Assembly (NCBI GenBank): GCA_000934385.1
Contig: KN880453.1
Location: 62,001 to 126,000 of the forward strand
Direction of reading: 5' to 3'
Source of the DNA: Cylindrobasidium torrendii FP15055 ss-10
Taxonomy: Eukaryota > Basidiomycota > Agaricomycetes > Agaricales > Physalacriaceae
Length of the DNA: 64,000 bases
This document shows positions 47,488-58,927 of the stretch, piece after piece. The translations under genes were made by a program, and so were the position numbers. The notes beneath the pieces are model-generated. The model ran no database searches. It saw only the letters and a program-made list of their open reading frames with translations, and had not been told where the DNA came from. Within the stretch, counting starts at the first letter, position 1, and the number at the start of each line of letters is the position of its first letter.

Positions 47488-48746
47488 CTAGTATGGTACT
47501 TCGTGGAACAGTTTGGATACACTCTCGCCGTAGTGACTTCGCCTGATGACCTCCCCAAGCACGACGCCGATGTCGATGACCTCTATCTTCGCACACCTAG
47601 CTTGATTTTCATGTTGCGGTAACGTATTTGTCACAATGAGCTTTTCCAATGAGCTGTTGTCCACCGCTTGCAATGCATTGCCGCTGAGGATACCATGGGT
47701 GACGATCGCGAACACTTTTGTCGCGCCGCCCTCAGCTAGGTGTTCCCCTGCTAGGCAGAGTGTGCCGCAAGTGTCGGCCATATCATCTACAAGAATTGCA
47801 ATCTTGCCTTTGACGTGCCCGACAAGGACCATGCGTGAGACTTCGTTTGCTTTCTTTCGCTCCTTGTGGAACAATGCAAAGTCGACGCCAAGACGATCCG
47901 CTATTGACGTTGCGCTGGATAGGAATTTAGATAGGGCGGCAGACATGAAGAGGAGCCCAACCGTTTCGCACCTCCCGCATCGGGGGATACAATCACGACG
48001 TCGTCTAGGTTAAAGTGCGTCCGGATATAAAGGATGGCAGACGGTTCAGCATACAACTAGAAAGGAATGAGATCGACATGAAGAGTGGGATGTACAACGG
48101 CATACACTGTAGTTACGGTTAACACGAGGGGAAACAACTGGTTCATTATGTCACTCACTTGTCCACCGGTACATCGAAGAAACCTTGTATTTGGGATGCA
48201 TGGAGGTCCATAGTCTGAATGGTCTTCAGATGATAATGAGTATTGCAAGCTACAAGCACTGACGATAATGTGGTCGCAGCCAGCCCGCTGGATCATATTT
48301 GCGACGAGTTTAGCAGTGATGGGTGCACGGCTCTTGTCCTTTTTGTCTTGACGAGCGTAAGGGAATAGTGGGATGACGGCAGTGATTCGTTTTGCGCTCG
48401 CAATCTTGCAGGCATGGATCATGATGCAGAGTTCCATAAGCGCCGTGTTGACCGACCCACAGCCGGTGTTAATGATGTAGACATCCGTTTCGCGGACAGA
48501 TTCTGCTATTCGCACGTTGGACTCGCCGATGCCGCTCTTCGTAACCTCCGCCTTCGACACATTTAAGCCGATTCTTGTGAGGAGTAAGTCTCCTGCGGAG
48601 CGCAAACGACCATTCGACGCACCTTCTAGCGATGATTTCGGCCAGTTCTGGATGGCTGGTGCCTACACTATATGGTTATACGCTGACTCCCCTTCTTGTG
48701 TAGCTTAAATACCAGAGAAGATTTTGATGCCACTTCCAGAGAGCAT
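47488..48746 (-). CDS. ribose-phosphate pyrophosphokinase (PRPP synthetase)
   Basis: About 320 residues. The enzyme makes PRPP from ribose-5-phosphate and ATP for nucleotide, His, Trp and NAD synthesis. The spliced N-terminus reads [20 protein letters not shown] and [47 protein letters not shown] (ATP loop), [32 protein letters not shown] and the PRPP-binding loop [14 protein letters not shown] follow. To join PVD to [15 protein letters not shown] in frame, a single T exon at 48106 is needed; a one-intron model shifts frame. The GGAKR-ATSIADR junction uses a weak GTTGGG donor. The stop follows KLFHEVPY. Confidence 0.88.
48106..48106 (-). other. putative 1-nt microexon of the PRPP synthetase gene
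   Basis: A single T lies between an intron ending CTACAG (48107-48158, 52 bp, donor GTGAGT) and one starting GTATGC (48057-48105, 49 bp, ending TTTCTAG). It completes the Asn codon of the conserved Val-Asp-Asn-Leu-Tyr-Ala-Glu-Pro. Confidence 0.6.
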
Positions 48747-56358: not shown

Positions 56359-58927
56359 ATGGCGCGTTTCGGTCTCGTAGACTCAGAGGATGAGTCTGAG
56401 TCGGACGTCTTCCCGGATGTGCGGCCCGTGGCTGTTGGACGTCAAAACCCTGCGCGCGACGAAGTGGATGAAGACATGGAAGATGAAGAGGAACAGGAGG
56501 AGGAGGAATATGATGAAGAGGAAGATGATGCAGAAAGAGACCAGGGCTCCGAAGATGAGCACTCTGAGAATGACTTTATGGACGAGGACGAGTTGCAGCC
56601 ACGTCCTAGTCGCAACAGGCTCGTTCTCGACGACGATGGCGAATTCGAGGTCGCTGGCCCCTCGAATGGCGTTCCCTTTTCCAATGGATTTGCTGCGAGT
56701 GGACGAATGCGCGTTATGCAAACATCGCTGTTCAGGATGCCAGAAGAGGCAAACAACATGCGAGCAATGTTGGTGGACGAGGACGCGCCCAATCCACTAG
56801 TAACGCGTTTGAAGGTTACGCGAAAGCATAGCAGAGATTCTGATGGAGAGGGGATGGGAATGAGGTTGGATAGCGTAGAGGTGCGCATTTAGTTGCCCCC
56901 GAACTCATTTACTAATGCCGTGTACTATAGCGTACATCGTTTGCGCACGATAATATTTCTTACCGCCCTTCCAAAAAGTACGCGCGTGTTGCCACCGCGT
57001 CATCAGCATTCACGGGACATGATGGGGCTGCTGTGGACGCCGGACTCTTCTATGGACAGGCTTTCCGCGTAGGTTGGGGTCCTGCGTCAACATATTGCCA
57101 TTTAAGCCCTGGGTGCGCGCCTTAGCAAAACGAACCTTTGAATATAACTGACGCTAAGGAATAGAGAAACCGCTGCATCAACCACTGTCCATTTGACCAA
57201 GAAATACGCCTACACGGAAACAGAAAAGGCCAAGGAACTCGCCTCAACGCTCCTCCAACACCATCTAACACATACACCTATTGAGAAGGGCAACGTTCCG
57301 TCAGCGACACCCTCACAAGAGTTGACGTTCTCTTCTTTCTCTGCGCTCTTCCCGACGACCGACCACTCTCCTGAGGCATCATTATTCCGATTGGGGCACG
57401 CCTTGTTCGACCCAGTCAGCAGCAAAATTCGAAGCACGAATGTCGACGACTATAGTCGGACACGTTTGGAGCATATTGCGCGAAAGGCAACCTTGTCAAA
57501 GTGGCTGCAGTATGCCGTTCAACCTACCATCGAAAATCTGCTTCGTGCGCCTGGGATTACAGCTACTGAGAAGGTGTGGCTCTTGTTGACGGGAAATCAA
57601 GTCGAACGCGCCTGCGAAACAGCGATGGATGCGGGCTACATCAAACTTGCTACACTTGTTGCCCAAGCCGGCGGCGACTACGAGACGCAGGCAGATCTCG
57701 AAGAACAACTGGACATATGGGAACGCGATGGCATAACAGCACACATCGACAAGTTCACTGTTCGAATATACGCCCTTCTTGGAGGAAGACAAGTCGATAC
57801 TGGTCTTGAAGGTGACTGGAAGCGAGCATTTGGATGTCATATGTGGTTCTCGGAGCCACTCGATCTTCCTCTCGCAGATGTGTTCAAGTCCTTCACCAAA
57901 CCCCCCGCGGATGCAGACCCATCGTTCGCCCTTCTCAAACTATTTGCCGACCCAGGATGCTCGTTGACCAAAGTCCTTGAACCGCGCGGGCAGGATTATA
58001 CACTCACTTGGCATCTATACGTCGTTCTATCACGGGTGCTCGAAATTCGCCATTTCGTGGACCGCGAGGCGGTGAATTTCCTTAGTGAGGATGGAGATGA
58101 AGTTTCCGACACGCATACGGCCGACCAATTAACTGTCACCTATGCAGTTCAACTTGAGCAGCTCGGCCTGATCCAGGAGGCTGTATTTGTCCTTCTTCAC
58201 TTGCCCGCGCCAGAGAGGTCCATCAAAGAGCTCCTGGCTCGTACCGCACCATTCATTGACGACTGGGTCAAGTCCGGTCTACTTGGTAGTCTCAAAATAC
58301 CCCAAGCATGGGTGTTGGAGTCTCAAGCTATACTGGCACTGGGCGAAGGGCGCGTATACGACTCGTACAAGCTCTACCTTGATGCGAGGATGTGGAAAGA
58401 GGCGCACGACATTGCTTGCCGAGAGCTTGCAGGCGAAGCCATCATACGTCGGGATGTGGAATGCTTGAGAGAGTTGTTCAATCGGTTCCCTAGTAATCAT
58501 GAAAAGGTGGAAGGATGGACGTTCCGAGGACAGGTAAGTGGAAAATTGCAGCTTCTCGTAAGACTTTTTGCTAAGTGCCGTGTCCAGATTTTTGCAAACT
58601 ACGCGGATATTGTAGGGGACGTCGAAGGGACGAGCCAGGAGATACTTGCGAAGAGGGCTGCCGACCTTATGCTTCTTCTTCCGGATGCTGTGTTCGACAA
58701 AGTTGTGCTGGATGAGATGACGAGGCAGCTTGTGCGTGTGGTGGATAAAGCAAAGACGGGACGTGGCGTGAACTTGGTATGCTTTTCATTCCGAATTGCC
58801 CTAGGTTACTGACAGTCTTTTCTAGTCGTCGGTACACTTCTCGCTCATCGACAGTCCAAGTCGGATCCACCATATCAAAACGGTTGGCGTCAAGCGCTTC
58901 CTCAAGAGTGTTGCCTCGGCAGCGTGA
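56359..58927 (+). CDS. NUP96: nucleoporin Nup96 (Nup145C), free-standing
   Basis: About 780 residues. The protein starts MARFGLVDSEDESESD, which aligns with the first residues of processed vertebrate Nup96 (SKYGLQDSDEEEE). An acidic stretch follows (residues about 40-85), then SLFRMPEEANNMRAMLVDED, and a Nup96 helical domain with FRVGWGPAS, LADPGCS-like LFADPGCSLTKVLEPRGQDY, HLPAPERSIKELLARTAPFI and LYLDARMWKEAHDIACRELA. It is a scaffold subunit of the Nup84/Nup107 Y-complex. The second intron after QVSGKLQ-encoding sequence (58534-58590) is in frame. The last exon encodes HFSLIDSPSRIHHIKTVGVK and ends with TGA at 58925-58927. Confidence 0.88.

Follow-up and report, generated by a model that had tools for sequence, protein, structure and literature searches.

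In Cylindrobasidium torrendii FP15055 ss-10 (Agaricales, Physalacriaceae), the gene for PRPP (phosphoribosyl pyrophosphate) synthetase most probably contains an exon of a single nucleotide, a T that completes the codon of a conserved asparagine. We put the probability of this reading at about 0.93, and such an exon is quite likely common to several orders of Agaricomycetes. The gene lies on the minus strand of the window analysed here (64,000 nucleotides of contig KN880453.1, positions 62,001 to 126,000, assembly GCA_000934385.1) and runs from an ATG at 48746 to a TAG at 47490..47488. On that strand, GGTTTCTTCGATGTACCGGTGGACAA is followed by 102 nucleotides (nt) and then by TTGTATGCTGAACCG. 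The 102 nt, at 48158..48057, divide into 52 nt (GTGAGT..CTACAG), the T at 48106 and 49 nt (GTATGC..TTCTAG), so that a single base separates a canonical AG acceptor from a canonical GT donor (CTACAG-T-GTATGC). A first-pass annotation of the letters had already proposed this arrangement, and re-reading the sequence returned the same coordinates, lengths (52 + 1 + 49 = 102), bases and frame.

The reading frame depends on this base. Keeping the T yields Asp-Asn-Leu-Tyr, whereas deletion of the whole 102 nt breaks the frame, which is then one base short. With the T kept, the predicted mRNA junction reads GACAATTTG and the seven spliced exons translate without interruption into a PRPP synthetase of 320 amino acids (aa), whose top match among the matches listed in the homology search is a Mucidula mucida protein (92% identical). 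Its identity as a ribose-phosphate diphosphokinase is supported by full-length homology to solved enzymes (31 distinct PDB sequences, E ≤ 0.001). The alignment to Ribose-phosphate pyrophosphokinase 1, which we take to be the human enzyme, covers residues 6-319, and by alignment offset Asn147 of the window protein corresponds to residue 144 of that chain. In translation, skipping of the exon (all 102 nt gone) leads to a stop at 163 aa, retention of intron 4 or of both introns to a stop at 147 aa, and retention of intron 5 to a stop at 166 aa; since all four mis-spliced forms stop early, the full-length product needs correct double splicing. Among the 29 in-frame splicings with one or two introns that we enumerated, the one-base exon obtained the top score (21.96), ahead of a runner-up (16.92) whose protein is shorter by 17 residues, and it was the only one of the 29 to keep the conserved motif. 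The interpretation of the T as an exon, put forward in the first-pass annotation, is thereby supported.

Both flanking introns resemble those of the rest of the genome. An intron model was self-trained on 267 kb (the window, the second PRPS locus and 20 stretches of 10 kb) with calling thresholds chosen after inspection of the score range, and called 197 introns, a set built without protein support for each intron that may include false calls, mainly in its long tail. Their median length is 52 nt, with 153 of 197 at 44-60 nt, 31 at 95 nt or more and 5 at 95-109 nt. At 52 and 49 nt, the two introns sit at the mode of this distribution, as had been claimed from the letters, and carry usable signals: relative to the trained introns, the donor of intron 4 is strong (percentile 79) and its acceptor fair (percentile 31), the acceptor of intron 5 is good (percentile 79), and the distance from the branch-like site to the following exon is 13 nt in intron 4 and 12 nt in intron 5, against a median of 14.

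A suitably placed AG-N-GT is not rare on its own (~4%), but it becomes rare once its sites must equal the real ones in quality. Dinucleotide shuffling of the inner stretch, repeated 20,000 times with both parts set at 45-60 nt, produced any AG-N-GT in 791 cases and one with N = T or C, as needed for Asn, in 746; only 15 had splice-site scores at least equal to the real ones. Natural GT-N98-AG stretches in the fetched DNA (n = 1,976) gave 87 with any such arrangement, 34 with T or C and 1 with scores at the real level. As the window itself was scanned, that single stretch is the real one, i.e. 0 of 1,975 others. In the same vein, a scan of the 267 kb for exons of 1-10 nt (introns of 44-60 nt on both sides, coding flanks) returned this T only. 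Three candidate micro-exons between introns of normal length were seen at other loci (12 nt in L012 near 3412, 11 nt in L013 near 8817 and 11 nt in L019 near 6437), and 11 of the 43 intron calls of at least 62 nt could be split into two canonical introns and an in-frame exon, mostly with low scores.

The relatives provide evidence that goes beyond the first-pass annotation, in the form of an apparent conservation of the exon. Two homologue searches, each represented by the best 120 of about 7,990 matches, gave 156 distinct proteins (P0001-P0156), which are therefore a sample of close relatives; the counts that follow hold among these listed matches. By hand we assigned 86 to annotated genomes, including P0003 and P0042, which have both kinds of source, and 70 to the others. 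These 70 come from unnamed collections only, on contigs of about 1-3 kb in which the whole open reading frame is uninterrupted, and given that a PRPS gene has several introns, they are most simply transcripts. The transcript-like homologues read Val-Asp-Asn-Leu in 69 cases and Val-Asp-Ser-Leu in one, with no indel at the site, in agreement with the earlier statement that the Asn is conserved. In the annotated proteins, 81 of 86 deviate at the Asn codon: 25 have Lys, 26 have Lys and then Trp (13), Tyr (8) or Cys (5), 18 lack Val-Asp-Asn and 12 show other replacements or insertions. All 56 internal indels of the annotated proteins fall at residues 144-147 and none at other intron sites; the single internal indel among the transcript-like proteins is at residue 4. 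The 30 closest pairs shown of an annotated and a transcript-like protein are 94.4-100% identical across the residues aligned; in 29 of them the annotated member deviates at the site and its partner reads Asn, the remaining pair being that of Laccaria P0003, whose model agrees with its partner. Pleurotus models conflict with one another, with Lys in P0071, a deletion in P0115 and an insertion in P0117 against Asn in the nearly identical transcript-like P0064. No Cylindrobasidium PRPS was named among the best 120 of about 7,990 matches in either search, and a public model for it is thus probably absent or broken.

The deviant models, which span about six orders, resemble repairs made to keep the frame around a one-base exon, and a conserved but mostly misannotated exon of this kind would fit the pattern of the relatives best. 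Read through the genetic code, Lys would arise from AA and the first G of the donor, and Lys-Trp, Lys-Tyr or Lys-Cys from AAG and then TGG, TAY or TGY, the result predicted for a model that extends into a donor GTRNGT by four bases and splices at the GT in positions 5-6 of that donor. A GTGGAC-type donor located eight bases upstream would account for the loss of Val-Asp-Asn. Likewise, Asn-Val-Ser (three models) can be AA plus Y followed by GTNAGY, with a donor right after the one-base exon, and inserts ending in Ser just before Leu-Tyr (four models) would represent AG plus Y, that is, the translated acceptor of intron 4 and exon base.

These comparisons also bear on the alternatives. One 102-nt intron next to a one-base assembly or sequencing error would explain why its removal leaves the frame exactly one base short. 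Such an error has very little chance, because across many genera the annotated genomes break at the codon that nearly all transcript-like relatives read as Asn (81/86 versus 69/70) and independent errors are implausible; moreover, introns of about 102 nt are rare in this genome (5/197 at 95-109 nt). Less probable still is a single longer intron of 110 or 116 nt with its donor in the upstream exon, losing Val-Asp-Asn or Val-Pro-Val-Asp-Asn. Both versions are in frame, and 18 of the 86 public models of relatives have the Val-Asp-Asn deletion, but these two single-intron splicings score 3.09 and 2.87 against 21.96, with donors below all 197 trained ones, and otherwise identical transcript-like sequences keep the three residues (P0064 versus P0115, P0063 versus P0109). 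A stwintron, in which one intron would sit inside a splice signal of the other and all 102 nt would be removed, would suit a stretch of twice the usual intron length in a fungus, a group where such introns are reported, but full removal loses the frame and meets the stop at 163 aa, which leaves this option a minimal chance. The same holds for a decaying gene copy with a true frameshift: the genome has a second PRPS locus and two other introns have weak donors, yet the rest of the gene encodes an uninterrupted protein close to that of a relative, and the second locus (L001, G000:C228) has a different structure at the Asn codon, where it reads GACAACTTG, without an intron. The N-terminal PRPS family was matched at two loci in the genome.

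Several observations weigh against a one-nucleotide exon. The donor of intron 5 is weak, although within range (percentile 11 of the 197 introns and 8 among the 153 short ones). Donors that are weaker still occur in the same gene, at intron 6 (GTTGGG, percentile 0 of 197) and intron 1 (GTATTT, percentile 2), two introns forced by homology, so that a weak donor is not unusual here. The thresholds of the chance test and the filters of the tiny-exon scan were picked with the real scores known. Five of the 86 annotated proteins have a plain Asn, and some relatives may therefore have a simpler gene structure. In Moniliophthora roreri (P0112), a Val..Gln insert might come from a 75-nt GT..CAG intron retained behind Asn, which fits a single phase-0 intron equally well. 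The transcript status of the 70 contigs is deduced from their length and absence of introns. The relatives' genomic DNA was sought by means of a degenerate pattern spanning the end of the upstream exon and the first donor, with 0 matches in each of viral_contigs and genome_contigs. Finally, the evidence for C. torrendii is genomic sequence rather than cDNA, and that for its relatives is protein rather than genomic DNA.

Table 1. Exons and introns of the PRPP synthetase gene, in window coordinates.
Feature	Position	Strand	Basis
Exon 1 (ATG at 48746)	48713..48746	-	Spliced translation, homology
Intron 1, 50 nt, GTATTT..GTGTAG	48663..48712	-	Trained intron model
Intron 2, 49 nt, GTGCGT..CACAAG	48574..48622	-	Trained intron model
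Intron 3, 49 nt, GTCAGT..CATTCAG	48215..48263	-	Trained intron model
Exon 4, 3' end GAC-AA	48159..48214	-	Sequence
Intron 4, 52 nt, GTGAGT..CTACAG; branch-like GTTAACC 13 nt before exon	48107..48158	-	Sequence, intron model
Putative exon 5, single nucleotide T, third base of Asn147	48106..48106	-	Sequence, splicing enumeration, translation, tiny-exon scan
Intron 5, 49 nt, GTATGC..TTCTAG; branch-like TCTCATT 12 nt before exon	48057..48105	-	Sequence, intron model
Exon 6, 5' start TTG-TAT (Leu-Tyr)	47962..48056	-	Sequence
Intron 6, 47 nt, GTTGGG..TATCCAG	47915..47961	-	Trained intron model
Exon 7, stop TAG at 47490..47488	47488..47914	-	Sequence, spliced translation

Elsewhere in the window, a Nup96-domain gene was found at 57193-58812.

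Recognition of short introns in fungi is generally attributed to intron definition. The T would accordingly lie between two spliceosomal introns of the ordinary type, about 50 nt long, each recognised as a unit through its own donor, branch point and acceptor, and would complete the conserved Asn codon. A tiny exon would then hinder the simultaneous occupancy of its two sites rather than their recognition; as the sites on either side of the T are too close for joint occupancy, the introns would be removed one after the other. Prior removal of intron 4 is mildly favoured, because it gives the donor of intron 5 a better exon side (AGT-GTATGC to AAT-GTATGC, score 3.43 to 4.37). We infer this course of splicing in C. 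torrendii and the intron order, as well as the sharing of the exon among Agaricomycetes of several orders. That the exon is old, common to Agaricales, Boletales, Russulales, Polyporales, Atheliales and Amylocorticiales, and retained because its slow double splicing determines or regulates the amount of PRPP synthetase made is a rather unlikely proposal, based on the early stops of all four mis-spliced forms. Amylocorticiales and Atheliales were looked up in taxonomy, and the relatives placed in the other four orders presumably belong there. A literature search on Asn144 of PRS1 as an allosteric residue found nothing.

If common to several orders, the exon would represent a long-standing constraint that gene prediction handles wrongly in most cases. 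Indeed, the deviation of 81 of 86 sampled public proteins inside a conserved motif suggests that most such models are wrong at this spot. Besides, the gene would offer a natural test, replicated over many cultivated species, of how the spliceosome handles two short introns one base apart.

Single-nucleotide exons are already known in a few genes, and the PRPP synthetase case adds to this rare kind. A literature search, with most subscription journals outside its scope, found no such exon described in a basidiomycete or in a PRPP synthetase. According to the accessible parts of the reports, they occur in Arabidopsis APC11, within a 422-nt stretch (PMC4674806), in APC11 and VPS55 across land plants (PMC8831610), in CYP621A P450 genes of Fusarium, with splicing confirmed by reads and nearly all public models wrong at the motif (PMC12940212), and in the Candida snoRNA host snR57-55-61 (PMC5033589); one-base exons are also reported in mitochondrial genes. 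As far as those parts go, APC11 and VPS55 share with our case a one-nucleotide exon that is needed for the frame, old and widely misannotated (PMC4674806, PMC8831610), but they are plant genes tested by constructs or RT-PCR, whereas both introns here measure about 50 nt. In the Candida host, too, a fungal transcript contains a one-base exon and is spliced in order, although it is non-coding, so that its frame is unconstrained (PMC5033589). Ascomycete stwintrons, from what is available of their descriptions, also involve two successive splicing reactions at one site of a fungal gene, but they retain no base, while one base must stay in the PRPP synthetase gene. In its described features, CYP621A of Fusarium also combines a fungal coding gene, a one-nucleotide exon in a conserved motif and a stretch of about twice the median intron. 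It differs as a read-confirmed P450 case from an ascomycete genus, with a G as the second base of a Gly codon (PMC12940212), whereas the exon described here, known from genomic letters, would place a T third in an Asn codon of a core enzyme, in basidiomycetes of several orders.
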